In this document: positions 23,986 to 61,840 of the stretch, one piece after another
Layout of the letters: each line of letters begins with the position of its first letter
How positions within the stretch are numbered: the first letter of the stretch is position 1
From: Polyangiaceae bacterium
GTDB lineage: Bacteria > Myxococcota_A > Polyangia > Polyangiales > Polyangiaceae
Reading direction: 5' to 3'
DNA: 64,000 nt
Assembly: GCA_016933275.1 (NCBI GenBank)
Contig: JAFGBI010000225.1
Coordinates: 94,622 to 158,621 of the forward strand
Made by a program: the position numbers and the translations under genes
Notes under the pieces: generated by a model
The model's database searches: none
What the model was told of the DNA's origin: nothing
The model's input: the letters and a program-made list of their open reading frames with translations, nothing else

Positions 23986-25437
23986 TCAGTACCCGAAGTC
24001 GACCCCTCGCCGGGGTGGTGCCGGGGGTCGCGGCGCCACCGGGTTCGGTCGTGGCGCTGGCGACTCGGCGCGCCCCGCGGGGCTGACCGGCGGACGCGCG
24101 GCCGTCGCCCTGAGCGCGGCCGAGGGGGCAGCTGAGGCGCTCGCGCTCGGCGATGACTCGGGACCGTTCTCGGGCTCCGCCGACGCGGGCGCTTCTGCCG
24201 ACGTGGATCCTTCGGGCACGCCAGGGCCCTCTGCGGAGGCCGGCACCTCGAGCGCCGAGGGAACAGGCTCCGTGGCCGTGGCCGAGGCCGCGAGTGCCCC
24301 ATCCGTGGAGGCGCCGCGTCCGAACAAGAAGAAGAGGCCGATCGCGACACCGCTGACGAACAGGACGGCGACCGCGCCGAAGCCGAGCAGGATCGGCAGG
24401 AAGCTTCGCTTGACCGGCGTCTCCTCCGCTTGGCTCGCGGACCAGTTGACGCGCGTGCCGCCCCCCGCGAGGCCGGAGTCGCCGGGCTCGAACCCGGTCG
24501 CCGCGGGCGCCGGCGGGCGGGGGGCGCCGGGCACGAGCTCGGAGACGTCACCCGGTGGAGGGACGGTGACGGCGGCTCCCTGCGCCATCCAGGCCTCGAT
24601 GGCCGTGGCCATCTCCTGCGCGGTCTGGAAGCGATGATTCACGTCGCGTGCCATCGCCTTGAGGATGATGCTCACGAACGCGGGATCGAGGTCGGGAACG
24701 ATGGTGAGCGGGGAGGGCACCTCCTCGAGCACGATCTTGAACATCAGCTGATTGAACGTCTGGGCGTCGAACGGTACCCGTCCGGTCACCGCCTCGTACA
24801 GGATCACCCCGACCGAGTAGAGGTCGCTGCGCGCGTCGGCGTCCCGGCTGCCGCTCGCCTGCTCCGGTGCCATGTAATAGGGCGTGCCCATCACCGCTCC
24901 GGTGCGGGTCATGCGCATGCCGTCGTTGGCGAGGGGCTGGAACTTGGAGATCCCGAAATCGATGATCTTGACGAAGTCGCGGACGCCCGCCTTCTCCTTG
25001 AGGACGAAGATGTTGTCGGGCTTGAGGTCCCGGTGGACGATGCCAGCCGCGTGGGCTGCCGCCAGGCCTTTCAAGACCTGCCAGGCCAGCGGGGCGACCT
25101 GCTGGGGTGTTATCCGTCCCGTTCGATGGATCCGATGGGAGAGCGGCTCGCCATCGAGGTACTCCATCACCATGAAGCGTTCTCCATCGGACAACGCCCC
25201 GAGATCGAGGACCTCCATGATGTGATCGCTGCCGATCCGGCCGGCCGCCTGCGCCTCGCGCTCGAACCGCTGCACCGCCTCGTTGCTCTCCCCGAAGCTC
25301 GGGTGCAGGACCTTGATGGCCACTCGCCGATTGATCCGCTCGTTCTCCCCTTCGAAGACCGCGCCCATCCCGCCCTCCCCAATGAGCGCGACGATCCGGT
25401 ACTTGCCTTCGATGATGTCGCCGATGTTGAAGGCCAT
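23986..25437 (-). CDS. Ser/Thr protein kinase (Pkn family) with TM and Pro/Ala-rich extracytoplasmic tail
   Basis: MAFNIGDIIEGKYRIVALIGEGGMGAVFEG..VAIKVL, IVHRDLKPDNIF, IIDFGIS, GTPYYMAPEQ; start at 25437. Confidence 0.9.
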   Translation of the reverse strand: MAFNIGDIIEGKYRIVALIGEGGMGAVFEGENERINRRVAIKVLHPSFGESNEAVQRFEREAQAAGRIGSDHIMEVLDLGALSDGERFMVMEYLDGEPLSHRIHRTGRITPQQVAPLAWQVLKGLAAAHAAGIVHRDLKPDNIFVLKEKAGVRDFVKIIDFGISKFQPLANDGMRMTRTGAVMGTPYYMAPEQASGSRDADARSDLYSVGVILYEAVTGRVPFDAQTFNQLMFKIVLEEVPSPLTIVPDLDPAFVSIILKAMARDVNHRFQTAQEMATAIEAWMAQGAAVTVPPPGDVSELVPGAPRPPAPAATGFEPGDSGLAGGGTRVNWSASQAEETPVKRSFLPILLGFGAVAVLFVSGVAIGLFFLFGRGASTDGALAASATATEPVPSALEVPASAEGPGVPEGSTSAEAPASAEPENGPESSPSASASAAPSAALRATAARPPVSPAGRAESPAPRPNPVAPRPPAPPRRGVDFGY

Positions 25438-25823
25438 GGTCTTTCCCCAGCTCGGGCGATGTATTTCGGGACCCACCGCCATTACGGTCTGAATCAGCTT
25501 ACGGAATTCTGCAACGAGGTTCTTCGCCCACCCTAGCCGACGCCCGCCTCCGCCGTCCCCGAGACCGCGCCGCGCCGCGGGGGGCATGGCTCGTCCCGAA
25601 CCCCACGCCGCGGGAGCGCTGGCGGCTCAGATCCGAACACTTCCGATGCCTTGGCAGATAGTCGCCCGGTTCCTCCCCACCGGCGGCCGGCGCCGACGGC
25701 CGATGGTGCTGCCACCCCATCACCCGACGAGATCGCGGGCAGAACCACGGGTCACCCTGGGCAAGCCCCCGAGACCACCCCACAGGATGCCCTGCTCGGA
25801 CCCTCGCCCTCCCCCGCGCCGTC

Positions 25824-26897
25824 GTGTTAGCCTCCACGGTCATGGTGGGCCTGACGAGGTTGGTCGTACCGTTCGCCGTCGCCGCGGCGCTTGGTCTGGT
25901 GTCAATGGGTGCGTTCGGGCAGTCCGATACCGAACGCGCTGGCGCCCGCGCTGCGGCCGAGGCCGGAGTCCGGGCCTACAGCGAGGAGAAGTATCAGGAG
26001 GCGCTCGACCTCTTCACCCGAGCCGAGAGCCTGGTCCACGCTCCCCCCCACCTTCTATACATCGCCCGGTCCGAGGAGAAGCTCGGCCACCTGGTGGCGG
26101 CCAAGGAGGCCTACAACAAGATCGTCCGCGAGGCGGTGCCGGCATCGGCGCCGCTAGCGTTCGTGAACGCGAGGACCGACGCGGAGAGGGAGCTGGCCGC
26201 CCTCGAGCCGCGGATCCCAGTCGTCACGGTGGTGGTGGAGGGAAACGGGGCGAACGAGGCCATGGTGACGGTGAACGGCGAGGAGCTCCCCAAGGCCCTG
26301 GTCGGGATCCCGCATCCCATGGACCCAGGCGAACACCACTTTCAGGCCAAGATCGGCAATGCGGCCAGTGAGGTGGTGACCAGAACGGTAGCAGAGCGGT
26401 CCGCCGAGACCATCACCCTCACCCTGGTCGGCGATCCCGGGACCGCGGCGACCGCAGCGACGGCCCAAGCGGAGCAGCCTGCGGTCGCGCCGCCCGTGGA
26501 ACCCCAACCGTCCGCGGCGGCCGACGCCGATCGGGGCACCAAACCGAGCAAGATCCCGGCCTACGTCGCCTTCGGCGTCGGTGGCGTCGGTGTCATCGCC
26601 GGCACGGTGTTCCTCGTCGTGCGGGGGAGCAAGCAATCCGAATCGGACTCGCTGTTCGACGAGTGTCTCGGCCGCGTGTGCTCCCAGGACGAGCGAGACG
26701 ACATCGTCGACATGGACAAGAGCGCGGCGAGCGCGGGTACCATGAGCTGGGTTGGCTACGCCGTGGGCGCAGCGGGGATCGGTACCGGGGTGGCGCTGCT
26801 CGTCACGAGCAAGCAGGGCAAGCGAGAGCAGGCCGAAGGCACGTTCGTGCGACCCTTCGTGGGCGCGGCGCACGCCGGGCTCTACGGTCGTTTCTGA
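25824..26897 (+). CDS. TPR/PEGA-like periplasmic protein with TM helices
   Basis: Signal-like N-terminus, YSEEKYQEALDLFTRAESLVHAPPHLLYIARSEEKLGHLVAAKEAY, C-terminal TM region. Confidence 0.6.
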   Translation: MLASTVMVGLTRLVVPFAVAAALGLVSMGAFGQSDTERAGARAAAEAGVRAYSEEKYQEALDLFTRAESLVHAPPHLLYIARSEEKLGHLVAAKEAYNKIVREAVPASAPLAFVNARTDAERELAALEPRIPVVTVVVEGNGANEAMVTVNGEELPKALVGIPHPMDPGEHHFQAKIGNAASEVVTRTVAERSAETITLTLVGDPGTAATAATAQAEQPAVAPPVEPQPSAAADADRGTKPSKIPAYVAFGVGGVGVIAGTVFLVVRGSKQSESDSLFDECLGRVCSQDERDDIVDMDKSAASAGTMSWVGYAVGAAGIGTGVALLVTSKQGKREQAEGTFVRPFVGAAHAGLYGRF

Positions 26898-26909: not shown

Positions 26910-29225
26910 ATGGCGACGAACGGGCTGGGACTGCGACGGTGGGCGGTGGTTTCCGGGATCGGGGCGATCTGGGTGTTCGCGTGCACGGCGAAGGACCGAG
27001 ATCTCTCCGAGTTGATGGATGACGAGGGGACGGAGACGGGAGCCAGGGGCGGAGCAGCGGGCGCGGATGCCGGGACGAACGGCGGCGGGGGCGGGGAGCC
27101 TGGCGTCGGCGGCAGTGGAGCCACGGTACCCGGTGGGGCCGCGGGTGCGGAGCCGGGTGGCACCGCGGGGACCGGGGCCACGGAACCGGGTGGCGCCGCA
27201 GGCGCGGAGCCGGGTGGCACCGGTGGCCAGGCGGGACAAGGCGCCGGCAGCGCTGGGGAAGCGGGGGCGATGGGAGGCGGCGCGGGTGGCGTCGTCGCCT
27301 GCGTGGATCCCCAGACGATGTGCCTCGGGGTGTGCACGGATCTCGCCACGGACGCAGCCAACTGCGGCGTCTGCGGCAACGACTGCGGGGAGGGCAAGAC
27401 CTGCGCGGACCATGTCTGCGTCTGCGACGACGAGCACCTGAATTGCGCCGCCGTCTGCATCGACCCGAACACCGACGACGACAACTGCGGCGGCTGCGGG
27501 ACCGAATGCCCTGACGACCGCGCCTGCGCCGAGGGGATCTGTACCTGCGCGGCGCCGCTGATCGAGTGCGACGGTCGGTGCGTCTACCCCGCCTCGGACA
27601 TCACCAATTGCGGGGAGTGCGGCCGTCGCTGCAGCGTGGGGGCATCCTGTATCGACTCGGATTGCCGTTGCCCGGAGGGCCGCGAGCTCTGCGAGGTCGA
27701 GGGCATCGAGCTTTGCCTCGACACGTCCTCCGACACCAACAACTGCGGTGGCTGCGGCGATGCCTGCGGCGCCAACCAGGTGTGCGCGAACAGCGAGTGC
27801 GAGTGCACCGGCGGGCTCGCGCTCTGCGACGGCGAGTGCGTCAACACCAACGCCGACGGTGAGAATTGCGGCCAGTGTAACCACACGTGCACGGGCGGTA
27901 CGTACTGCGTGGGGGGCAATTGCCAGTCGGACTGCGTGTTGGACATCTGCGGCGCCTCCTGCGTGGACCTCGACACCAACATCCAGCACTGCGGCCAGTG
28001 CGACCACGCCTGTGCGCTGCCGCATGCCACCCAAATCTGTTCGGACGGAGTCTGCGGCCTCGGCCCCTGCGACACGAACTGGTACGACCTCGACCAGGAC
28101 GTGGACACGGGCTGCGAGTACCTCTGCACGTCCGATCCACTCGTAACGGAGTCCTGCTCCGACCCGAACCTCTCGAGGGACGGCAGCGACAACGACTGCG
28201 ACGGAGACACCGACTGCGCGTTCATCGAAGCGACCTTCCCGGAGTCCGGCAAGGCGGCCGCCGCCGAGGACGTGTTCATCAAGATCCAGAAGCTCTACGA
28301 TGCGGCGGTCACCTTCCAGTGTCGCTCGGCCAAGGTGGGCTCGGAGCTGCCGCCGACCTGGTCGCCCTGCCCCACCGCCGCCAGCGACCCGTACAAGGTC
28401 CTGCCCTGGACAGCAGACCAGTCGTCGGACCCGGCGAACGACGGGCGCTGGATGACCCAGGTGCGGATGCGGTTCACGGCCAACGGGCACGTGAGCGCGC
28501 CCACACCCGTGTTCCAGTATTACCTTCACCACAGCCTCAGCGGCGAGAAGGCCGAGATTTGCAAGCCGGCGGCCACCGACGCGGCCTTCTTCTCGGCAGC
28601 GAGTCCGTATCTGCTCGCCGGGATCGGCAGGCCGCCGACCTTCGCCGAGGCCGAGACGTACATCGCGAACCCGTTCATCAACGTGCCGTTCTCGCCGCCC
28701 ACCGTGCAGACGCTGTCCTGGGACCTCAACGGCCGGGACCGAACCATCGAGATGCTCTCGCTGAGGCGGCGGTTCGTGCTCGACGCGGCCCGCACGCTCC
28801 TGCTCGTCACGCGGGTCTATACCTCGAGGCGGGGCTCGGACGAGCGGATGGCTTGCGAGGTCGGCATGATCCACAAGCACGACTATTTCGACGGCTCCAC
28901 CTACGACATCAACCGTCAGTTCTACAACCACTGCGATGCCTGGGTGCTAAACCGGGCGGGCGCGGGCGTCTGTCTCGACGTCCAGTCGAGCGGGACGATT
29001 CGGGTCATGAACCCGACCAGCGCTCAGCTCAAGAAGCGCTTCCCCGCCACGGTCCTGTTCGACGACGCGGACAACCTCATGTGGAGGAAGCTCCAGGCGG
29101 GCGGTGCCTCCTCCTCGGACCACTTCTCGCCCAAGTGCTACACCGCGCCGGACTGCCCGCGCTCGGAAGAGGAGCTCTATCTGCCCGACCGAGACCTGTT
29201 CCCGGGTCTGCCGGATCTGCCCTGA
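26910..29225 (+). CDS. Large Cys-rich lipoprotein with repeated NCGxCGxxC modules
   Basis: Lipobox IWVFACTAKD; Gly/Ala/Thr linker; ~7 repeats of the type CxDxxxDxxNCGxCGxxCxxGxxCxxGxCxC. Confidence 0.75.
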   Translation: MATNGLGLRRWAVVSGIGAIWVFACTAKDRDLSELMDDEGTETGARGGAAGADAGTNGGGGGEPGVGGSGATVPGGAAGAEPGGTAGTGATEPGGAAGAEPGGTGGQAGQGAGSAGEAGAMGGGAGGVVACVDPQTMCLGVCTDLATDAANCGVCGNDCGEGKTCADHVCVCDDEHLNCAAVCIDPNTDDDNCGGCGTECPDDRACAEGICTCAAPLIECDGRCVYPASDITNCGECGRRCSVGASCIDSDCRCPEGRELCEVEGIELCLDTSSDTNNCGGCGDACGANQVCANSECECTGGLALCDGECVNTNADGENCGQCNHTCTGGTYCVGGNCQSDCVLDICGASCVDLDTNIQHCGQCDHACALPHATQICSDGVCGLGPCDTNWYDLDQDVDTGCEYLCTSDPLVTESCSDPNLSRDGSDNDCDGDTDCAFIEATFPESGKAAAAEDVFIKIQKLYDAAVTFQCRSAKVGSELPPTWSPCPTAASDPYKVLPWTADQSSDPANDGRWMTQVRMRFTANGHVSAPTPVFQYYLHHSLSGEKAEICKPAATDAAFFSAASPYLLAGIGRPPTFAEAETYIANPFINVPFSPPTVQTLSWDLNGRDRTIEMLSLRRRFVLDAARTLLLVTRVYTSRRGSDERMACEVGMIHKHDYFDGSTYDINRQFYNHCDAWVLNRAGAGVCLDVQSSGTIRVMNPTSAQLKKRFPATVLFDDADNLMWRKLQAGGASSSDHFSPKCYTAPDCPRSEEELYLPDRDLFPGLPDLP

Positions 29226-29239
29226 GCTCGGGTTTCGTT

Positions 29240-29449
29240 GGGCCTCGGGTGGCGCTACCATGGCTCCCGCCGGAGCGCCGGCGGCCCTCGCGACCCAGGT
29301 CGCGACCGTCCACGAGTCGTCATGGGGACCGCGGTCCCGGACGGCTCTCATACGGTCCCACTCGCCGGCGATCCGTACCTTCCCGCCGTCCGCTCCGGCA
29401 GTTCGTCCTTCCGACGTTGGTTGTTCGACGCCAGGCTGGCTGAGCAAAG
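29240..29449 (+). other. Hairpin-rich intergenic region upstream of RT gene; candidate ncRNA or 5'UTR
   Basis: TCGCGACCCAGGTCGCGA (29288-29305) immediately followed by outer stem CCGTCC (29306-29311)/GGACGG (29339-29344) enclosing perfect palindrome GGGACCGCGGTCCC (29325-29338). Confidence 0.35.
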
Positions 29450-30877
29450 ATGCCGCCATCCGCGCTCGCGGGGCTCTTCGCCCCCAAGCTCTACCTGAGG
29501 AAGCTCGCCGAGCTCGAGGCGCGCTGGCGTGAGCGGCGGCGTCTCGATCGGGTGACGAGCGGCGGGCTCTCGCTGCTCGACCTCGGCGCCCGCGGACCCG
29601 AGCTGGTGAGCGAGATCGTGCGGGCGGTGCGACGAGACGAGTACGAACTCGGCCCGCTCCACGAGGTCGAAGCACGGGTCGAGGGCAAGCGGCGCACGCT
29701 CTATCTCCCAAACCTCACGGACGCGCTGGTGCTCGCGGTGCTGGCCGATCGGCTCGCCGCGATCCTCGAGCCGTCGCTCTCGCCCCACCTCTACTCGTAT
29801 CGACGGGGGCGCTCTTCGTGGCAGGCGCTCCGGGGTCTCCAAGGGTTCCTGGCCGAGCACCGGGCCCGGCTGCCGGTCCGCGAACGTGGCCTCTACGGTC
29901 TTCACCGCGACGTCGCTCGATATGGCGAGTCGATCCCGACTGGCCGCGGGGCACCGATCCACGAGAAGGTCGAGCGATTGCTCGCGCCCCATCGGGCCGA
30001 GACCGAGGCACCGGTGTTCGAGCGACTCCTCAAGGCCGCCATCCGGCCGCGAGTCGTCAGGGACGGGGCGCGGTCTCATCGGTTGAAGCGGGGGCTCCCC
30101 ACGGGATCGCCCATCCAGCCCGCCCTCTGCAACCTCTACCTCGCGGGGCTCGACCAGGAGCTCGAGCGCCTCCCCGGTGCCTTCTACGCTCGTTTCGGCG
30201 ACGACATCCTGTTCTTGCACCCTGACGCCGCCGTGGTGCAGAGCGCGAGCGAGCTCGTCGATCGCGAGCTAGCCCGGCTGGGACTCACGACCAAGCCCGA
30301 GAAGCGCCGAGACTTCTACCTGAACGGCTGCGGCCGTTCGGGAGCGGCGTGGCCCACGGCTCGAGCGGGCACGGACCTCGAGTATCTCGGCGCGCGGGTG
30401 GCGTTCACGGGCAACATCGGGCTCAAGCGCGAGAAGCTGCGGAGGCTGCTCGGTCGGCTGCGACGACGCCTCCGCAACACGGCGGTGCTCCTCCGCGCGG
30501 AGTCGCGCGAGGAGCGGGCGCGAACCCTGTGCGCGGTCGTGGAGGTTGCCCTCGACCCGACGTCGCCCCTGGCGGAGCCGACCACGATGCTCCTCCATTT
30601 CGTCCTCGACGACCGGCGTGGGCTTCGCCAGGTAGACCATCTGATCGCGCTCGCCGTGGCCGAGCTCGTCGCCGGACGCCGCGGGCCGCGCGCCTTTCGC
30701 CAGGCGCCTCCCCGGTGGCTGCGAGCGCTCGGCCTGCCCTCGCTCGAGGACCGGCGCAACACGATGGGGGGGAAAGCTCGCACGGCCCCACACACCACGC
30801 CGCCCGTCACCGACGACCCCTCGATCCACGGATCCTACCGCGATCTTTCGACGGACGACGACGGGGGTGACCCGTGA
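29450..30877 (+). CDS. Reverse transcriptase, non-canonical and unclassified
   Basis: RT motifs: RTLYLPNLTDALVLAVLADRLAAILEPSLSPHLYSYRRGRSSWQAL; motif A-like GLYGLHRDVARYGESI; GLPTGSPIQPALCNLYLAGLDQEL; catalytic YARFGDDILFLHPD; thumb-proximal LEYLGARVAFTGNIGLKREKLRRLL. In-frame TGA at 29441 fixes ATG 29450. Confidence 0.85.
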   Translation: MPPSALAGLFAPKLYLRKLAELEARWRERRRLDRVTSGGLSLLDLGARGPELVSEIVRAVRRDEYELGPLHEVEARVEGKRRTLYLPNLTDALVLAVLADRLAAILEPSLSPHLYSYRRGRSSWQALRGLQGFLAEHRARLPVRERGLYGLHRDVARYGESIPTGRGAPIHEKVERLLAPHRAETEAPVFERLLKAAIRPRVVRDGARSHRLKRGLPTGSPIQPALCNLYLAGLDQELERLPGAFYARFGDDILFLHPDAAVVQSASELVDRELARLGLTTKPEKRRDFYLNGCGRSGAAWPTARAGTDLEYLGARVAFTGNIGLKREKLRRLLGRLRRRLRNTAVLLRAESREERARTLCAVVEVALDPTSPLAEPTTMLLHFVLDDRRGLRQVDHLIALAVAELVAGRRGPRAFRQAPPRWLRALGLPSLEDRRNTMGGKARTAPHTTPPVTDDPSIHGSYRDLSTDDDGGDP

Positions 30878-32946
30878 AGACGCTCCGCGCCTGGCTCGCT
30901 CGGGAGCGACGCCGCCTGGAACGAACACCTCGCCTGGCGGACGCGCTCGTCACCGACCGAGGCCTTTGGTACGCGGCGTATCGGCTCCGGTACGGGGTCG
31001 TTCGCGTCGCTCTGCGCACAGCGCTCCACGTCGTGGAGCTCGCCCTGCTCTCGCTGGTGTTCCCCTTGTCCTGGCTCGCCCCCGTGTTCATCGTGCGCAC
31101 GGCGAGCTCCCTCTTCGCGGTGCTCTGGTGGGGAGGGCTCGAGGCCCTCCGGGAGCAGGTCCGTCGGCTCGCGCGCGAACGCCGAGGCGACGCCGTGGGC
31201 GGAGTCATCGACGACTGGCTCGTCTTGAGCGTGATCGTGGCGGCCGCGCTGCAGCTCGTCGCCGTGGGCTGGGCGGCGTTCGGTCCGGATCCCGTGGGCG
31301 GCTTCAGCATCTTCGACGCCTACGCCATCGCCGCGGGGATCCGGGTCGGGCTGGAAACCATCGCCCGCACCTACCACTCTGGCATCTTCGCCCTGCGCCG
31401 CATCTATCGGCCCCTCTGGACCCTGCTCCTGATCGATGTCTTCGACTTGCTCGGCCCGCTCCTGCTCTGGCGGGCCGTCGGTACCTGGTCGTTTGCTACA
31501 AGCATCCTGGCGGTGGGGCTCCTCAGGGTGGGGATCCTCCTTCACTACACCCGCCGCGGCTACCGAGGGGCGCGCTTGGCAGACCGTCAGCTGCTTCAGG
31601 CGGCGCGCCGAGCACCGCGACGCCTCGCCAAACTCGGGCTCGGCACCGCAGCCAGCCACGCGCTCGCCGCCGCTGCCGGACAGGTGGATTCGCTCGTGCT
31701 GATGGCGCTCGTCGCGGGCTCGCGCGCCGGGACGTCGCTCCGCCTGGCGGCCACCCTGTTCGTGCTCTCTCCGTTGCTCGGGGCCGGTGTGGGCTGGGCC
31801 CGGGTGTTCTACTTCGATTTCAAGCGCCTCCAGCGCGGCGCCCCGCTCTTCCTCGTGGAGCGCTTCGAGGGCCTGGTGGGCAACGTCGCTGGTGGGTTCC
31901 CCATCCTCTGCTGGGCGCTCGGGTTCGCTTCCGCCAGCCTCGTCGCGCCGGAGGTGGTGAACGCGGGATCCCTCGTCCTACTGCCGTTTCTGGTGGCTCG
32001 GTCGCTGTTTGCCCTCCGGCACGTCCAGGCCTTCGCCTACCAGGACCACCGCGTCCAGGCCGCGCTCGCCCTGGCGGTGCTCGTGGGCCTCGGGCTCGTG
32101 GTCGTCCTACCAGAAGACGAACACCTCTTGTTGGGTGCGCTCACCCTGGTGCTGGTGGTGGCGATCGTGGCGGTGCCGGCTGCGCGTCGCCCGGCGTCGG
32201 GGCCATCCCTCGACAGCGTCCCGGAATTGCCCCTGCTCCGCTGGCTGCCCGCGGGGGTCGCCGCCGAGCTGCCGGCGCGGATCTGGAGGGTGCGCCATGA
32301 CCGCCGGCTCGCGTCGGGCGGGAAGCTGCGCGTCGCGCTCCGGCGGGTGGTCGGCGCGGGCGCATTCACCAGCCCCGCCGCCGATTCGCTGCTGCTGCTC
32401 TCGCTCGGGGAGGCGGAGCGCGACCGGGAGCGACGGTCTCTGATCCGCGCCGCTGGCGGGTGCATCCTCGCGATCGACTGCCTGGGCGCCGGACCGAACG
32501 GGCGCAGCGCGATCGCTGCCGCAGTCCGCGAGCCCGCGCTCGTGGAGGCGCTCGGCGGCGCCGACACCGGGCGCCGACGCACCAGGCGCGCAGACGACCC
32601 GCCGGGCTCATCGATCCCCGACGCCCTGTGCGCGGAATTCGGGCGCCGGTTCCCCGATGGTGAGATCCTGCGGATGGACCGACGCGCGGACGCGCGCTTC
32701 CGGCGGAAGAAACCGGCAGACGTGCGCCAGCTCGTCGCGCTCGTCACCGGAGTGAGTTCACCTCGCCCGGTCGAACGGGTGTGGGGGGCGGAGGTGGACG
32801 GAGCCGTCTACGCACCACTCGGCGAGCCCGAGCTGGTCTTCGTCATGCGCCGGAGCTCGCCCCAGGAACCCAGGGGGAACTTCAAGCGGAGGGTCTGGGC
32901 AGCGAGCCTCGCGGCCTCGCTCATCGTCCTCGAGCTCACGGAATGA
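30874..32946 (+). CDS. Polytopic membrane protein (~690 aa) coupled to RT; flippase/MATE-like TM half plus ~230-aa soluble C-terminus
   Basis: GTG start overlaps the RT stop (GTGA). About 12 hydrophobic helices in the first ~455 aa, then a charged soluble region (RMDRRADARFRRKKPADVRQLVALVTGV). Confidence 0.8.
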   Translation: MKTLRAWLARERRRLERTPRLADALVTDRGLWYAAYRLRYGVVRVALRTALHVVELALLSLVFPLSWLAPVFIVRTASSLFAVLWWGGLEALREQVRRLARERRGDAVGGVIDDWLVLSVIVAAALQLVAVGWAAFGPDPVGGFSIFDAYAIAAGIRVGLETIARTYHSGIFALRRIYRPLWTLLLIDVFDLLGPLLLWRAVGTWSFATSILAVGLLRVGILLHYTRRGYRGARLADRQLLQAARRAPRRLAKLGLGTAASHALAAAAGQVDSLVLMALVAGSRAGTSLRLAATLFVLSPLLGAGVGWARVFYFDFKRLQRGAPLFLVERFEGLVGNVAGGFPILCWALGFASASLVAPEVVNAGSLVLLPFLVARSLFALRHVQAFAYQDHRVQAALALAVLVGLGLVVVLPEDEHLLLGALTLVLVVAIVAVPAARRPASGPSLDSVPELPLLRWLPAGVAAELPARIWRVRHDRRLASGGKLRVALRRVVGAGAFTSPAADSLLLLSLGEAERDRERRSLIRAAGGCILAIDCLGAGPNGRSAIAAAVREPALVEALGGADTGRRRTRRADDPPGSSIPDALCAEFGRRFPDGEILRMDRRADARFRRKKPADVRQLVALVTGVSSPRPVERVWGAEVDGAVYAPLGEPELVFVMRRSSPQEPRGNFKRRVWAASLAASLIVLELTE

Positions 32947-53737: not shown

Positions 53738-54436
53738 GTGAAGCTCAACCAAGGCGAGGCCGCCAATCTGGTCGGCGTCTCGGAAGGAGCCATCATCCGA
53801 CTCGCCAAGGACGGCGCCATCCCCTGCCAGCGTCTGGAGGGTGAATACTGGTTCCACCGCGCCGAGCTCCTGGAGTGGGCCACCGCGCGCGGGTTCGCCG
53901 TGGCCACCGACGCCTTCTCGGCGTCCCGCCGCGCCAACGACCTGCCCCTCCCGCGGTTCGCGCACGCGCTCCAGATCGGAGGGATCCACCACGGCATCAC
54001 TGCGCGCAACCGTGACGAGGCGTTGCGCGCGGTGGTCGATTGCCTTCCGGTGGAGGACGAGAGCGAACGCGAGCTCCTGCTTGCCGTGATGGCCGCCCGG
54101 GAGGCGATGGGCTCGACGGGCATCGGGGACGGGATTGCCATCCCGCACGCCCGCGCCCCTGTCCTGCTCGAGACCCGTAACCCTTCGATCGTGCTCTGTT
54201 TCCTCGAGCAGCCGGTCTCGTTCGGCGCCGTCGACGGACGCCCCGTACACACGCTCTTCTCGATGGTCACCCACACCGTCCGCTCACACCTCCACCTGCT
54301 CGCTCGCCTCGCTGCGTCCCTGCGAGACCCGGACTTTCGCCGCACCGTCCTCGAGCGAGCGCCCGCTCCCCGGATCCTGGCCGAGGCGACGCGCGTGGAG
54401 CTCCAGCTCGGCCATCCGGGACCGGAGGAGCGATGA
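53738..54436 (+). CDS. HTH (excisionase/MerR-like) plus PTS EIIA-type domain protein
   Basis: LNQGEAANLVGVSEGAIIRLAKDGAIPCQRLEGEYWFHRAELLEWA; EIIA-like SGIGDGIAIPHAR-type motif (TGIGDGIAIPHAR). Confidence 0.75.
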   Translation: MKLNQGEAANLVGVSEGAIIRLAKDGAIPCQRLEGEYWFHRAELLEWATARGFAVATDAFSASRRANDLPLPRFAHALQIGGIHHGITARNRDEALRAVVDCLPVEDESERELLLAVMAAREAMGSTGIGDGIAIPHARAPVLLETRNPSIVLCFLEQPVSFGAVDGRPVHTLFSMVTHTVRSHLHLLARLAASLRDPDFRRTVLERAPAPRILAEATRVELQLGHPGPEER

Positions 54437-54479
54437 GCGCACCGTGCGGCTGTACAAGCCTCCCCGTCCGAGGACGAGC

Positions 54480-56444
54480 GTGAACGAGCTCTTGGTACTC
54501 TGTGCGATCGGGATCGTGGCCACGAGCGGGCTCGGCGCGCTCCCGTTCGGGACGCGTTCGGTGACGGGTGACCGGATCTTCGCGGCGTGGTTCGGGGCCG
54601 GGGCGGGGCTCGGCGCCGTCGCAGCAGGACGCGCCCTCGCGGGTGTCCCGGCCACCCCGATATCCCTACCCTGGCAGGTGCCGGGCGGTGAGCTCGCGAT
54701 CGCGCTCGATGCGCTGTCGGCGGTGTTCTTGCTCCAGATCTGCCTGGTGGGGAGCCTCGGCACGGTCTTCGGCCTCGCCTACTGGTCCGCGCGGGAGCAT
54801 CCGGAGTCGGCGGCCCAGCTCCGCGTCTTCTATGGGCTCCTGGTCGCGGGGATCGCGCTCCTCCTCGTCGCCAAGAACGCGGTCCTGTTCCTCGTCGGCT
54901 GGGAGATCATGGCCCTCGCCGCGTTCTTCGCCATCACCACCGACGACACCGACGCCGAGGTCCGCGCGAGTGGGTACGTCTACCTCGTCGCCACGCGCGT
55001 CGGCTCGCTCTTCCTCATCGCGACGTTCGCGGTGCTCCGCTCGTTGACGGGGTCGTTCTCACTCGCCATCACTGGACTCTCGGGAGACACGGCGGCGGGA
55101 ACCGCGATCTTCGCGTGCGGACTCGTCGGGTTCGGAATGAAAGCCGGGATGATGCCCCTCCATGTCTGGCTCCCTGGCGCGCACGCCAACGCGCCGAGCC
55201 ACGTCTCGGCCCTGATGAGCGGCGTGCTGATCAAGATGGGCATCTACGGCCTCTTCCGGATCACGGGCTGGTTCTCGACCGTGCCGCTCGCCTGGGGGCT
55301 CGCGCTGTTCGCGCTCGGTGCGTTGTCCGCGGTCCTCGGCGTCGCCTTCGCGCTCGGACAGCACGATCTCAAGCGCCTCCTCGCGTACCACAGCGTCGAG
55401 AACATCGGGATCATCGGGATGGGGCTCGGGATCGCCCTCATTGGGCGTTCGCTCCAGCAGCCGACGCTGGTCGCCCTAGGGTTCGCTGGTTCACTGCTCC
55501 ACGTGTTCAACCACGGCCTCTTCAAATCGCTCCTCTTCTTCGCCGCCGGTGCCACCATCCGCGCGACCCACACCCGCGAGATCGATCGCCTCGGCGGACT
55601 CATCCGGCAAATGCCACGAACCGCCGTCGCCTTCCTCGTGGGGGCGGTGGCGATCTCGGGGCTCCCGCCGCTCAACGGCTTCGTGAGCGAGCTCTTCCTC
55701 TATCTCGCGATGTTCCGCTCCCAAACGCTCGATCTCGGCGCCGCCGGGCTCTTCGTCGCGCTCGGCGCCCCGGTGCTCGCCCTGGTCGGCGCGCTCGCCG
55801 TTGCCTGCTTCGCAAAGGTCTTCGGCATCGTGTTCTTGGGGCTCCCACGCGCCCCCCAACCCGCGAACCTTCGCGACGCGCCCCCGGCGATGCTGGCGCC
55901 GATGGTGGTGCTCGGGCTAGCCTGCGTCGCGATCGGCGTCGTACCGAGTTGGGTCGGCCCGCTGCTCGAGCGGAGCCTCGCCGCGTGGACGGGGGAGCCC
56001 ACGTCACTCGTGGGGCTAGCCCCGCTCTCGACCCTCTCGTGGCTGAATGCCCTACTGCTCGCCAGCCTCCTGGTCTTCGGTTTCGCCCTCGTGTCGGCGA
56101 CCGCGAGGAAGGCCGACCGCCAACCAACCTGGGACTGCGGCTACGCAGCGCCGACGCCCCGCATGCAGTACACGGCGTCCTCCTTCGCGGACGGCCTCGT
56201 CGAGCTCTTCTCCCACGTACTCCGCCCGGAACGCCACACGGCCCTCATCGACGGCCCGTTCCCGCGGCCGAGCTCCTTCTCGAGCCACGTCCCCGATCTC
56301 GTGCTCGACCGGATCCTGACCCCCGTGGCCGCGCGCCTGGCGCGCGGCGCCACGTGGTTCCGCTGGATCCAGCGGGGAACCGTGCACCTCTATCTGCTCT
56401 ACCTGCTCGTCACGTTGATCCTCATGTTCGTCGTGTGGCGCTAG
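54480..56444 (+). CDS. HyfB-like proton-translocating membrane subunit
   Basis: NADH dehydrogenase/Mrp-type: GFGMKAGMMPLHVWLPGAHANAPSHVSALMSGVLIKMGIYGLFRI; QHDLKRLLAYHSVENIGIIGMGLG. Probable GTG start. Confidence 0.85.
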   Translation: MNELLVLCAIGIVATSGLGALPFGTRSVTGDRIFAAWFGAGAGLGAVAAGRALAGVPATPISLPWQVPGGELAIALDALSAVFLLQICLVGSLGTVFGLAYWSAREHPESAAQLRVFYGLLVAGIALLLVAKNAVLFLVGWEIMALAAFFAITTDDTDAEVRASGYVYLVATRVGSLFLIATFAVLRSLTGSFSLAITGLSGDTAAGTAIFACGLVGFGMKAGMMPLHVWLPGAHANAPSHVSALMSGVLIKMGIYGLFRITGWFSTVPLAWGLALFALGALSAVLGVAFALGQHDLKRLLAYHSVENIGIIGMGLGIALIGRSLQQPTLVALGFAGSLLHVFNHGLFKSLLFFAAGATIRATHTREIDRLGGLIRQMPRTAVAFLVGAVAISGLPPLNGFVSELFLYLAMFRSQTLDLGAAGLFVALGAPVLALVGALAVACFAKVFGIVFLGLPRAPQPANLRDAPPAMLAPMVVLGLACVAIGVVPSWVGPLLERSLAAWTGEPTSLVGLAPLSTLSWLNALLLASLLVFGFALVSATARKADRQPTWDCGYAAPTPRMQYTASSFADGLVELFSHVLRPERHTALIDGPFPRPSSFSSHVPDLVLDRILTPVAARLARGATWFRWIQRGTVHLYLLYLLVTLILMFVVWR

Positions 56445-56457
56445 GAGGCGCCATCCC

Positions 56458-57372
56458 TTGCCCGTCCACCAGGTCGTCCTCCACCTTCTCTGCCTGCTGA
56501 CGCTGCCGCCGCTTCTGGTCGGCATCATCGTCAAGGTCAAGGCGCTCTTCGCGGGACGCGTCGGGGCGCCGCTCCTCCAGCCGTACCTCGACCTGTTCCG
56601 CCTCTACCGGAAGGGCACCGTCCTCAGCAGGACCTCGACATGGCTCTTCGTCGCCAGCCCCGTGGTGGCGATCGTGACCATGCTGCTCGCGGGTCTCCTC
56701 GTGCCCTTCGGGTACCCGAGCGCGCCCCTCGCCTTCACCGGGGACTTGGTGCTCTTCGCCTACCTCCTCGGGCTCGCGCGGTTCTTCACCCTGCTCGCGG
56801 CCCTCGACACGGGATCGGCCTTCGAAGGGATGGGTGCCGCCCGAGAAGCCACCTGGGCCTCGCTCGCCGAGCCGGCGCTCTTCCTTGGCCTGCTCGCGCT
56901 CGTGCGGCGCTCCGGCTCGATGTCCCTGTCCACCGTGCTCGACGTGTCGCTGGATCGTGGCTGGGGCGAGAGCTCCGCGGTGCTCTTGCTGGTCTTCGTC
57001 AGCCTCTTCGTGGTGTTCCTGGCGGAGAACTGCCGCATCCCGTTCGATGATCCGAACACCCACCTCGAGCTTACGATGATCCACGAGGCGATGGTGCTCG
57101 ATCACAGCGGTCCCGCCCTCGGTCTCATCCTCCAGGGCGCGGCCACCAAGCTCTTCGTCCTCGGCGCCCTGGTCGTGCACACCATCCTGCCCATGAGTCG
57201 GGGCTCGAGCGTCGTTGGCTGGGCGAGCTTCCTCGGGGCGATGATCGGGCTGGCCGTGGCGGTCGGCGTCATCGAATCGACCATGGCCCGCGTCCGCATG
57301 AAACGCGTCGCTAGCCTGCTCATCGCCGCATGCGTACTCGCCGGCTTCGGCGTGATCCTGACCGCGAGGTAG
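56458..57372 (+). CDS. HyfC/HycD/NuoH-like membrane subunit
   Basis: RVGAPLLQPYLDLFRLYRKG; AENCRIPFDDPNTHLELTMIHEAMVLDHSGP. TTG start. Confidence 0.85.
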   Translation: MPVHQVVLHLLCLLTLPPLLVGIIVKVKALFAGRVGAPLLQPYLDLFRLYRKGTVLSRTSTWLFVASPVVAIVTMLLAGLLVPFGYPSAPLAFTGDLVLFAYLLGLARFFTLLAALDTGSAFEGMGAAREATWASLAEPALFLGLLALVRRSGSMSLSTVLDVSLDRGWGESSAVLLLVFVSLFVVFLAENCRIPFDDPNTHLELTMIHEAMVLDHSGPALGLILQGAATKLFVLGALVVHTILPMSRGSSVVGWASFLGAMIGLAVAVGVIESTMARVRMKRVASLLIAACVLAGFGVILTAR

Positions 57373-57374
57373 TC

Positions 57375-58019
57375 GTGACCGCCCTCGTCGATAGTCTCCT
57401 CATCCTCGTCCTACTCCTGAACTTCTTCTCGCTGGGAACGACCCGCGTGAAGGCGCTGATCAACGGCTCGGCCGCGCAAGGGGTGGTGATCGGCTTCGTG
57501 GCCCTGTTCTCGCAAGGCGAGCTCACCGTCGAGACGGCGGTGGTGGCGGTGAGCGCAGTGACGCTCAAGGGGATCGTCATCCCTCGCCTGCTGCTGCGCG
57601 CCCTTCGCGACGTGCGCATTCGGCAGAACATCGAGCCCTTCATCGACTACGTCCCCTCCTTGCTCATGGGCGCGGTGGGTAGCGGCCTCGCGATCCTCTT
57701 CGCGAACACCCTCCCGCTCGCCCCGGAGCACGAGGGCGCGCTCCTCGTCCCCACCTCACTCTCGACCGTGCTCACCGGATTCCTCCTCCTTACCACGCGG
57801 CGGAAGGCGATCAGCCAAGTCATCGGCTACCTCGTGCTGGAAAACGGGGTGTTCATCCTGGGCCTCACGCTGGTCGGCGCCATGCCGTTCCTGGTCGAGC
57901 TCGGCGTCCTTCTGGATCTGCTCGTCGGAATCTTCGTCATGGGCATCATGGTCAACCACATCGGCCGCGAGTTCTCGTCGCTCGACACCTCCCGCCTCGC
58001 TCAGCTCAAGGAGGAGTAG
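57375..58019 (+). CDS. HyfE-like membrane subunit
   Basis: TM protein in hyfE position; GYLVLENGVFILGLTL. GTG start at 57375. Confidence 0.75.
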   Translation: MTALVDSLLILVLLLNFFSLGTTRVKALINGSAAQGVVIGFVALFSQGELTVETAVVAVSAVTLKGIVIPRLLLRALRDVRIRQNIEPFIDYVPSLLMGAVGSGLAILFANTLPLAPEHEGALLVPTSLSTVLTGFLLLTTRRKAISQVIGYLVLENGVFILGLTLVGAMPFLVELGVLLDLLVGIFVMGIMVNHIGREFSSLDTSRLAQLKEE

Positions 58020-58022
58020 GCG

Positions 58023-59453
58023 GTGGCCCTGGCGCTAGTCCTCGTTCCGTGGTGCTTCGCGGCGGTGATCTTCGCGATCCGAGGGCAGCGTGCCCGCCCC
58101 TACCTCGTGGCCGCCGGAACATTGGTGCAGGCGATCCTGGTCCTGATTGCGCTGTTCCTGCCGGAGGTCACCGCGATCGAGGGATGGCTCCGTCTCGACG
58201 CCCTCGGCCGGCTCGTCCTCGGCACGACCACGGTGCTCCTTCTGGCAACCGCCGTATACCTTCCCGCCTACCTCGAGCAGCACCCCACCAAGTCGAACCG
58301 CGGTTTCTGCACCTGCATGATGGCGTTCGCCGGGGTCGTCGGCCTGATGACGCAGGCGTACCACCTGGGGCTGCTCTGGGTCGGGCTCGAGGCGAGCACC
58401 CTGGCGGTCGCGCCGCTCATCTACTTTCACCGCACGCCACGCTCCCTGGAGGCGGTGTGGAAGTACCTGCTCATCGGCTCGGTGGGGATCGCGCTGGCCC
58501 TGTTCGGTTCCTTTTTGCTTGGCTATGCGGTGCTCCACGGGGGCGGGCATCCCTCGCTCCTGCTCCCGGACCTCGTCGCGAGCGCGCCGAGGATGTCACG
58601 TCCCTGGCTGCATGCCGCGCTGCTCGTGTTGCTCGTCGGCTATGGCACCAAGATGGGGCTTGCCCCGATGCACACGTGGAAGCCGGACGCCTACGGCGAG
58701 GCACCCGGCGTGGCCGGCGCGCTGCTCGCGGGGGCCGTGACCAACTGTGCGTTCCTGGCGGTGCTACGGGTCCATCGCGTCGCGGTCGCCGCGGGCGAGG
58801 CCGATTTCGCCCGTCGACCGCTGCTCGCGCTCGGCCTCCTTTCCATGCTCGTCGCTGGCATCTTCACGGTGCGCCAGAAGGACTACAAGCGCCTGCTCGC
58901 CTACTCGAGTGTCGAGCACATGGGGATCCTGGCCATCGGGATCGGCATCGGAGGTGGGGCCGTATTCGGGGCGCTGCTCCACATGGTGAACAACGCCCTC
59001 GCCAAGGGGACGCTGTTCCTCACGGCCGGAAACCTGCACCGAGCCTTCGGCAGCAAGTCAACCGACCAGGTGAGGGGGGCCATCCGGCGGGTTCCGGCCT
59101 CTGCAGCGCTGCTCCTGGCCGGATTCTTCGCGATCACGGGGTCACCTCCGTTCGGACCGTTCCTGAGTGAGCTCACCATAGTCGGCGCTGCGATCGACCG
59201 CGGACACATCCTGGTGGCGGGCACCTTCCTCGCCCTCCTCGCCGCCGTGTTCGTCGGCATGGGGGCCACGATGCTCGCCGTCGTGCAGGGCAACGCGGAT
59301 GGGACCGACTCGACCCCGCCTGTCCGCGAACCGGTGGCGCTGGTGGCCCCCGCCGCCTGCCTTCTCTGCCTCGTGCTCCTCCTCGGGCTCCACGTCCCCG
59401 AGCCCCTCGCCGCACTGCTTCGAGAGGCCGCCGCCGAGCTGGATGCGCCATGA
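58023..59453 (+). CDS. HyfF-like proton-translocating membrane subunit
   Basis: GYGTKMGLAPMHTWKPDAYGEAPGVAGALLAGAVTNCAF; RQKDYKRLLAYSSVEHMGILAIG. Confidence 0.85.
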   Translation: MALALVLVPWCFAAVIFAIRGQRARPYLVAAGTLVQAILVLIALFLPEVTAIEGWLRLDALGRLVLGTTTVLLLATAVYLPAYLEQHPTKSNRGFCTCMMAFAGVVGLMTQAYHLGLLWVGLEASTLAVAPLIYFHRTPRSLEAVWKYLLIGSVGIALALFGSFLLGYAVLHGGGHPSLLLPDLVASAPRMSRPWLHAALLVLLVGYGTKMGLAPMHTWKPDAYGEAPGVAGALLAGAVTNCAFLAVLRVHRVAVAAGEADFARRPLLALGLLSMLVAGIFTVRQKDYKRLLAYSSVEHMGILAIGIGIGGGAVFGALLHMVNNALAKGTLFLTAGNLHRAFGSKSTDQVRGAIRRVPASAALLLAGFFAITGSPPFGPFLSELTIVGAAIDRGHILVAGTFLALLAAVFVGMGATMLAVVQGNADGTDSTPPVREPVALVAPAACLLCLVLLLGLHVPEPLAALLREAAAELDAP

Positions 59454-61063
59454 CCCGCAGCGACGAGCAAGATCCCGGCCGAGACGGCAACGATCCGGGC
59501 GCCCTCGGCGGCGAAGGACGCGTCGATCCCCGGGCGCATGAGCCGGGACCCGCGCTCGCCGCGTTCCGCAACGGGCGGTCGCTGGCGCTCGAGGAGATCC
59601 CGGTGCTCTCGCTCGAAGAGCTCCGCAATGCCGTGATCCAGGCGCCGAACGGCCATGGCCGAGTGTCAGCGCTCTTCGCTGTACCCGCGGCCGATGGGTT
59701 CACGCTCTATGCCGTGTTGTCCTGCGAGGCCGATGGCCTGATCCGCGTGGGGCGCGCCGCGCTCGCCGAGCCGAGCTTTCCGTCGATGACCCCAGAATGC
59801 CCGCAGGTGCACCTCTTCGAGCGGGTGCTCGCCGAGCGCTGGGGCCTCGTGCCCGAGCAACACCCCTGGCTGAAGCCCGTCCGCTTCGCTCCGCCTTGGA
59901 GCCGAGAGCCAGACCTCGACCCCCCTCTCTCCGCCGAGCGCTCCGCCATCGCCCTCGAGCATCCATATCGCATCGACGGCTCCTCCGTGCACGAGGTCGC
60001 CGTCGGCCCCGTCCACGCCGGAGTGATCGAACCCGGGCATTTTCGCTTCCAGTGCCACGGAGAGCTGGTAATGCACCTCGAGATCAGCCTCGGCTACCAG
60101 CACCGCGGGATCGACCGCGCGCTCGCCGGCGGTCCGGCGCCACGCACCATCCCCTACGTGGAAACCCTCGCGGGGGACACGACGATCGGACACACCCTCG
60201 CCCATTGCGAGCTCGTCGAGGCGCTCTCGGCGACCCGGGTGCCGCCGCGGGCGCTCTCGATTCGGGCGATCGCGCTCGAGCTCGAGCGGCTCGCCAACCA
60301 CGTGGGTGATCTCGGCGCGCTCGCCGGCGATGTGGGCTACCTGCCAACGGCGTCCTTCTGCGGCCGCCTACGCGGCGATCTCCTCAACCTCTCGGCGGCC
60401 CTCTGTGGCAGCCGGTTCGGGCGTGGGCTGGTCCGTCCCGGAGGGGTCGCCTTCGACCTCGAGCCGGAGCGCGTCGAGCGGATCGCCAAGGGCCTCGAGG
60501 CGACGCTCGGCGACGTCGGGAGCGCGGTGACCCTGCTCTGGGAGAGCCCCTCGGTGATGGAGCGCTTCGAGAACACCGGCGTCCTGACGCCCGACACCGC
60601 CGACGCGCTCGGCCTCGTGGGAGTCGTGGCCCGAGCCGCTGGCCTCGACCGCGACGTGCGCCACGACTTCCCCGCCGGGATGTACCGCCTCGCACAGATC
60701 CCGACCTCGGTGGCCCGCACCGGCGACGTGTTCGCCCGGGCCTATGTCCGCTGGCTCGAGGTTCAGCGTTCGGGAAGGTTCCTCCACGAGCAACTCCGTG
60801 CACTCCCTGCCGGCCCCGTTCGACGGCCCGCCGCCGAGCTTCGTCCGGGCCGCCTCGCCGTCTCGCTCGTCGAGGGTTGGCGCGGCGAGATCTGCCACGT
60901 CGCCATCACCGACGCCCAGGGCCGCTTCGCCGCCTACGAGGTCGTCGACCCCTCCTTCCACAATTGGACGGGCCTCGCCCTCGCCCTCCGCGACCAGGCT
61001 ATCTCCGATTTCCCTCTCTGCAACAAGAGCTTCAACCTCTCGTACTGCGGCCACGACCTCTGA
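59450..61063 (+). CDS. HyfG/HycE-like (NuoC-NuoD-type) large subunit lacking canonical NiFe cysteine pairs
   Basis: MHLEISLGYQHRGIDRALAGG..VETLAGDTTIGHTLAHC (no RxCGxC); C-terminus SDFPLCNKSFNLSYCGHDL (no DPCxxC). ATGA overlap with the upstream gene. Confidence 0.8.
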   Translation: MTRSDEQDPGRDGNDPGALGGEGRVDPRAHEPGPALAAFRNGRSLALEEIPVLSLEELRNAVIQAPNGHGRVSALFAVPAADGFTLYAVLSCEADGLIRVGRAALAEPSFPSMTPECPQVHLFERVLAERWGLVPEQHPWLKPVRFAPPWSREPDLDPPLSAERSAIALEHPYRIDGSSVHEVAVGPVHAGVIEPGHFRFQCHGELVMHLEISLGYQHRGIDRALAGGPAPRTIPYVETLAGDTTIGHTLAHCELVEALSATRVPPRALSIRAIALELERLANHVGDLGALAGDVGYLPTASFCGRLRGDLLNLSAALCGSRFGRGLVRPGGVAFDLEPERVERIAKGLEATLGDVGSAVTLLWESPSVMERFENTGVLTPDTADALGLVGVVARAAGLDRDVRHDFPAGMYRLAQIPTSVARTGDVFARAYVRWLEVQRSGRFLHEQLRALPAGPVRRPAAELRPGRLAVSLVEGWRGEICHVAITDAQGRFAAYEVVDPSFHNWTGLALALRDQAISDFPLCNKSFNLSYCGHDL

Positions 61064-61072
61064 GGGACGAAC

Positions 61073-61840
61073 GTGTTCAAAGAGCTCTTCGCCCGCGCCC
61101 GTCAGGGCCACCACACCATCCCCTACCCGCGGTCGCTCCCGGTCCTCCCCGACCGCCTCCGCGCCGCCCCAGAGCTCGACCCCGCGCGCTGTCCGGCGGA
61201 CTGCCGCGCCTGCGTCGAGACCTGCCCGACCGCCGCCATCCTGCGCGACGCCACCGGCCCCATCCTCGATCTTGGCCGATGCCTCTTCTGCGGTGACTGC
61301 GCCGCCGCCTGCCCCGCAAACGCCCTGCGCTTCACTCCCGACCACCGCCTCGCCACCCGCAGTCGCGAGGCCCTGGTCCTCCGTGACCGCCAGCACCGCG
61401 GTGATCTCCGCCTCGAAGCGGCCCGTCGCAGGCTCTTCGGCCGCTCGCTGAAGCTCCGCCAAGTGAGCGCCGCCGGCTGCAACGCTTGCGAGGCGGACCT
61501 CAACGTCCTGACCACTATCGGCTTCGACCTCGGCCGCTTCGGGATCCAGTTCGTCGCCTCGCCGCGCCACGCAGACGGCATCGTCGTCACCGGGCCGGTG
61601 TCCGAGAACATGAAGCTTGCCCTCGAGAAGACCTACGCTGCCGTCCCTGCCCCGAAGCTCGTCATCGCCGTCGGCGCCTGCGCCATCGCGGGCGGTCCGT
61701 TCGCAGGGCACGCCGAGGTCCGCGGTGGCGTATCGGCAGCAATCCCGGTACCGATCGATCTATTCGTCCCCGGTTGCCCGCCGCATCCGATGACGATCCT
61801 CGATGGACTGCTCGGACTGCTCGGGAGAGGCCCTCGCTAG
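61073..61840 (+). CDS. Ferredoxin-type 2x[4Fe-4S] domain fused to NuoB/HyfI-like small subunit
   Basis: CPADCRACVETCP, CLFCGDCAAACP; AAGCNACEADLNVLTTIGFDLGRFGIQFVASPRHADGIVVTGPV..VIAVGACAIAGGPF..VPGCPPHP. Confidence 0.85.
   Translation: MFKELFARARQGHHTIPYPRSLPVLPDRLRAAPELDPARCPADCRACVETCPTAAILRDATGPILDLGRCLFCGDCAAACPANALRFTPDHRLATRSREALVLRDRQHRGDLRLEAARRRLFGRSLKLRQVSAAGCNACEADLNVLTTIGFDLGRFGIQFVASPRHADGIVVTGPVSENMKLALEKTYAAVPAPKLVIAVGACAIAGGPFAGHAEVRGGVSAAIPVPIDLFVPGCPPHPMTILDGLLGLLGRGPR

Follow-up and report, generated by a model that had tools for sequence, protein, structure and literature searches.

In DRT9, DRT10 and retrons, a reverse transcriptase (RT) copies part of a noncoding RNA (ncRNA) into DNA. 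DRT9 (a UG28 RT with its ncRNA) and DRT2 are built on a stand-alone RT with a cassette ncRNA, retrons join an RT to an msr/msd ncRNA and an effector, and DRT10, which has a UG17 RT, combines the membrane partner SLATT with a 137-nt ncRNA whose large central stem-loop bears four smaller ones (PMC12632851). Here we describe a cassette from a 64-kb stretch of a myxobacterium-like genome (the window, whose positions are used below unless a related locus is named), in which an RT gene adjoins the gene of a polytopic membrane protein (MEM), next to a candidate structured ncRNA and the gene of a secreted lipoprotein (UP). The cassette resembles DRT10 in its RT, in a structured ncRNA of similar size and layout and in having a membrane partner (PMC12632851), but the UG17 model matches its RT with 50 bits only, the partner has a predicted 12-helix MOP-type fold instead of SLATT, an exported lipoprotein is added and the position of the ncRNA varies. 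With DRT9 and DRT2 it shares the stand-alone RT and cassette ncRNA, yet its RT has no family-level match and is accompanied by a conserved MOP-fold gene and the lipoprotein. The likeness to retrons lies in an RT-adjacent ncRNA closed by complementary ends and in the effector gene, whereas retron RT models match weakly (at most about 27 bits, where NCBIfam cut-offs are 235 bits and more) and Rfam gives no match in the window.

As far as we checked, the RT clade, the ncRNA, the MOP-fold partner and the lipoprotein are new, while systems made of RT, ncRNA and membrane partner are already known in kind. In the libraries searched, the RT has no match at family strength and neither the MEM family nor the UP head domain is represented, and we found no description of the cassette in the literature, although a mention in the UG/Abi survey (10.1093/nar/gkac467) cannot be excluded. 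We give an even chance to the reading that this is a new RT-ncRNA-membrane protein cassette, usually joined by a surface lipoprotein, whose most likely use is in immunity or envelope stress. The two coding regions at its centre are the following.

29450..30877, + strand: reverse transcriptase, 475 aa (Pfam RVT_1 match, tree, conserved catalytic residues)
codon at 29909 and codons at 30200-30205, + strand: RT catalytic Asp154 and Asp251-Asp252 (family-wide conservation)
30874..32946, + strand: MEM, polytopic membrane protein, 690 aa, GTG start (adjoins RT; AlphaFold2 fold)
about 32233-32943, + strand: soluble C-terminal domain of MEM (AlphaFold2 model)

The original prediction, made from the window alone, was of a two-gene operon in which an unclassified RT overlaps a membrane protein of about 690 aa with a GTG start. 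Both open reading frames are present, the start of MEM overlaps the RT stop by 4 nt, and their GC content by codon position is coding-like. A search of 97 related genomes yielded three close RT orthologues (38-42% identity), well apart from other RTs; with further relatives from GTDB contigs and additional genomes, iterated profiles defined a family of 38 RT loci in Myxococcota, Bdellovibrionota and Coxiellales. The proposed co-occurrence of the membrane gene with the RT holds across these genomes, MEM adjoining the RT in each of the 35 loci where the contig extends further; two Coxiellales-group loci have the genes in the opposite order. Because this adjacency persists while the first relatives have 28-43% RT identity, the pairing is beyond chance. 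The pair is thus real, but the two-gene description was incomplete, since a structured ncRNA and often UP, both of which it missed, also belong to the cassette; its observation is confirmed and its interpretation partly supported.

The RT domain matches Pfam RVT_1 with E=2e-14, exceeding the gathering score, and contains the motifs first quoted for it. The family is probably catalytically active, as judged from sequence, because the motif A Asp is kept in 38/38 members and the RxGDD/RYCDD motif in 37/37 members that reach it. In a maximum-likelihood tree, a branch with 100/99 support separates the family from 28 other RTs, which include group II introns and a true UG4. The RT is thus not nested among the group II intron RTs sampled, a placement that would have contradicted the original prediction; the tree is silent on the DGR (diversity-generating retroelement), Abi and most UG groups, whose named references are absent from it. 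The RT also remains unclassified, with no UG/DRT model matching it at family strength. Its best defence-type matches are all weak: UG26 (67 bits), UG4, UG17 (= DRT10, as above), DRT9 (48 bits) and DRT2 (46 bits). UG26 was rejected as parent family because other RTs in the phylum match its model better, with up to 117 bits; a true UG4 reaches 353 bits with the model of its own family. No relative turned up in viral contigs. At two related loci (L036:8001-8031 and L038:7970-8001) RT homology reaches further upstream, in L036 beyond the first in-frame ATG/GTG/TTG, so that translation may begin at an unusual codon, for example CTG.

The nearest relatives of the RT domain, in sequence and among solved structures, are group II and group II-like RTs (GsI-IIC RT, G2L4) and RT-Cas1, which together with a match of 80 bits to the group II intron model TIGR04416 would suit a decayed group II intron or another selfish element. 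That score is, however, far under the cut-off of 300 bits, a threshold that 9/10 of the scanned background RTs exceed; in the tree the family falls outside the group II intron clade that was sampled, no Rfam intron RNA was found in the window, and the RT has conserved partners. We consider such an origin extremely improbable.

MEM of the window has no sequence match in Pfam, PADLOC or PDB. An AlphaFold2 model built from 30 sequences (mean pLDDT 80.5, pTM 0.69) supports the predicted architecture of about 12 membrane helices followed by a soluble C-terminal domain, in which strands and helices are modelled in the order beta-alpha-beta-beta-alpha-beta. Searching PDB with this model in Foldseek gave 17 matches at E<=0.001, all of them MATE/MOP or WzxE entries (E down to 2.4e-5, probability 1.00, TM to target about 0.5-0.6), and MurJ structures are also among the fold matches. 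The modelled MEM fold, with its 12 membrane helices, is that of the transporters of the MOP superfamily (MATE/Wzx/MurJ). From those transporters MEM differs by the lack of detectable sequence similarity, by its extra soluble domain and by its genetic tie to an RT.

The third component lies immediately upstream of the RT gene in the window.

29269..29399, + strand: candidate noncoding RNA (fold, position, P3 motif, covariation in relatives)
29269-29284 with 29383-29399, + strand: closing stem P1 (predicted fold)
29288-29305, 29314-29347 and 29351-29377, + strand: hairpins P2, P3 and P4 inside P1 (predicted fold)
29325..29336, + strand: P3 core GGGACCGCGGTC, with a YGCG tetraloop at 29330-29333 (motif search)

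RNAs of about 100-190 nt share a common architecture in about 30 related loci despite differing sequences, with a long closing stem P1 enclosing several hairpins. In a test for a long-range stem, in which p<=0.03 was counted as significant, P1 was significant in 15/31 regions upstream of the RT and in 1/33 control windows; in L109 it consists of 17 perfect pairs, and L116 has a P1 of 18 pairs. Two-sided covariation was found at 12 pairs in one group of loci (L077, L105, L106 and L107; 0/500 shuffles, P1 98% paired), and P3, with 7 pairs, covaries over Myxococcota, Oligoflexia and Coxiellaceae, its covariation score being reached in 0/500 shuffles, counts that exaggerate significance for related sequences. 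When the RNAs of all lineages are placed in one MAFFT alignment, P3 is in register and P1 is not. The YGCG tetraloop sits on P3 in many lineages, the P3-core motif occurs at the cassettes of six further members (L036, L037, L038, L039, L040 and L041), and the palindromic P3-core site is the sole match of the pattern GRGAYYGCGGTC in the 64 kb (0.46 expected by chance, both strands). Rfam has no match in the window at gathering thresholds or in the intergenic stretch of L044. As in Class 2 DRT systems, the cassette thus carries a structured, covarying RNA, and binding of this RNA by the RT is putative. In the ncRNAs of L036, L076, L029 and L042, CCAC is frequent by eye, sometimes doubled, in the unpaired stretch 3' of P3; this stretch might serve as an A-B-A' template like that of DRT10.

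In many loci the RNA ends 0-72 nt ahead of the RT start, as would be expected if it were only a cis-acting leader of the RT gene, for instance a riboswitch or attenuator. Its position elsewhere makes this very improbable: in loci with no space, or no structure, ahead of the RT, a search of the rest of the cassette located it 3' of MEM in L041, L075 and L112, 3' of the RT in L116 and, as two tandem copies, in L115 (7683-7802 and 7929-8046, with differing P1 arms and conserved P2 and P3), and, in L029, next to UP at a distance of about 5 kb from the RT. Another tandem pair lies 5' of the RT in L082 (2842-3025 and 3128-3314). Because the ncRNA shifts place yet stays with the cassette, its sequence context argues for a trans-acting component, more than an RT leader. 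L110, L113 and L114 form a Coxiellales subgroup with RT and MEM and no ncRNA detected nearby. Genomes G825 and G829 hold a second, ncRNA-bearing copy, so that the RNA may be shared in trans.

Upstream of the ncRNA, the lipoprotein gene completes the cassette.

26910..29225, + strand: UP, secreted lipoprotein, 771 aa, lipobox Cys25 (head profile, linkage)
about 28200-29222, + strand: conserved C-terminal head domain of UP (profile, about 325 residues shared)

Judged by eye, the N-terminus of UP is that of a lipoprotein, with a hydrophobic start and a lipobox Cys25 that is invariant in alignment A3. Alignment of relatives reveals a variable stalk followed by the conserved C-terminal head. The stalk is Cys-rich and STIG1-like in the window, where the Pfam Stig1 match is confined to it, and across relatives it may be of STIG1-like, EGF, collagen-like, MopE or Ig-like type. 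The head model (pLDDT 75, pTM 0.78) gave no convincing full-length match in a PDB fold search, only partial immunoglobulin-like ones. Among the 97 relatives the head is present in 4, exactly those carrying the RT, a coincidence that random placement would produce once per about 3.5 million draws when kinship is ignored. UP accompanies most Myxococcota and many Bdellovibrionota loci of the cassette, and in 17 loci it is on the contig of the RT, beside or near it. Most carriers have one head copy per genome; G141 has 3, and at L083:2007-9044 of this genome a 2345-aa protein ends in a UP head with no RT in the 16 kb examined around it.

A surface protein gene adjoining an RT, together with the doubled, tandem UP genes of L035 and L080, would also be expected of a DGR, in which the RT rewrites the UP head from a template repeat. 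Neither the window nor 24 loci contain a template/variable repeat pair, in keeping with the original prediction, which DGR-type repeats nearby would have contradicted. The search returned domain repeats, tandem UP copies and the direct repeats of L082, the latter due to its tandem ncRNA copies, and nothing else; mismatches between UP repeats have no adenine bias, the genome holds no second copy of the stretch spanning the UP end and the ncRNA, and the head is conserved across phyla. We therefore regard a DGR as highly improbable.

The observations that carry our interpretation are the linkage of the genes, a structured, covarying RNA that accompanies them, the preserved catalytic residues of the RT and the MOP-type fold of the MEM model. 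RT relatives occur in Polyangiaceae, Kofleriaceae, Oligoflexia and other Bdellovibrionota, and in Coxiellaceae and their order; Myxococcota and Bdellovibrionota are groups rich in predators. Predatory and intracellular bacteria both carry this cassette, so that it probably represents a new system for RNA-to-DNA signalling or for defence. Its presence is patchy (16/369 genomes in the Bdellovibrionota search, 8/36 in that of Coxiellales) and some genomes have two or three divergent copies, a scatter that is compatible with defence and does not show it. If the cassette works like DRT9, DRT10 and retrons, its RT would bind the ncRNA and copy part of it into DNA; the RNA-protein complex or the complementary DNA (cDNA) would then act on the soluble tail of the MOP-fold MEM and so gate this protein at the inner membrane, while UP would display its conserved head outward on a variable stalk as a surface sensor or target. 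An immune or envelope-stress response, for example against phage, would be its most likely use. A stricter version, a trans-envelope system in which cDNA made by the RT on its dedicated ncRNA directly gates a flippase-like MEM paired with a surface lipoprotein, is conceivable but less likely than not. Phage defence is plausible as the function of the cassette, and abortive infection is a guess.

Several findings weigh against this interpretation. A simple abortive-infection pair would not be expected to include an exported lipoprotein, and UP is absent from the Coxiellales genomes tested and from some Bdellovibrionota. Linkage to a defence island was a check proposed with the original prediction; none was seen around the window cassette, whose neighbours match defence models through generic Ser/Thr-kinase and PASTA domains only. 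The P3 core motif is missing or altered in part of the family, no ncRNA was detected in L034, L104, L110, L113 and L114, and the genomes are mostly metagenome-assembled. Taken alone, the window copy of the ncRNA does not differ significantly from shuffled sequences (P1 p=0.27, minimum free energy z=-1.0) because the region is very GC-rich; it is a candidate that rests on position, architecture, the P3 core and covariation in relatives.

The chief alternative to phage defence is a role in the envelope or in predation. In such a system, unrelated to phage, the RT-ncRNA complex would regulate a flippase-like exporter that builds or displays a surface polymer or UP, for example in predation or in prey or host contact. 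Transporters of the MOP fold act as flippases of lipid-linked polymers or as exporters of small molecules, which would suit this role, as would a lipoprotein whose stalk varies while its head is conserved, and a distribution centred on Myxococcota, Bdellovibrionota (many of them predators) and Coxiellales. However, Coxiellales keep RT and MEM without UP, glycan or secretion genes were not noticed consistently beside the cassette (no systematic test was made), and no RT is known to us with a comparable function. On this evidence we think the envelope role unlikely, although it deserves serious consideration.

Next to the cassette are a Ser/Thr kinase gene (23986-25587, - strand) and a signal-bearing gene (25824-26897, + strand). 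In L036, L038 and L033 the cassette is likewise flanked by homologues of the two, and in L040 by one of the signal-bearing gene; these neighbours are possibly regulators, or else belong to a shared chromosomal neighbourhood. Further away, at 54135-61840, a run of membrane and ferredoxin-like genes resembles, from translations only, a hydrogenase or complex I-type operon.

If our reading of the immune or envelope-stress cassette is true, it would add a cassette that joins an RT clade and a family of ncRNAs with a membrane partner of MOP fold and a head domain of lipoproteins, all missing from the libraries searched. The emerging theme of RT-made DNA controlling membrane proteins would thereby be extended to flippase-type proteins, and Myxococcota and Bdellovibrionota would offer a directly testable case.
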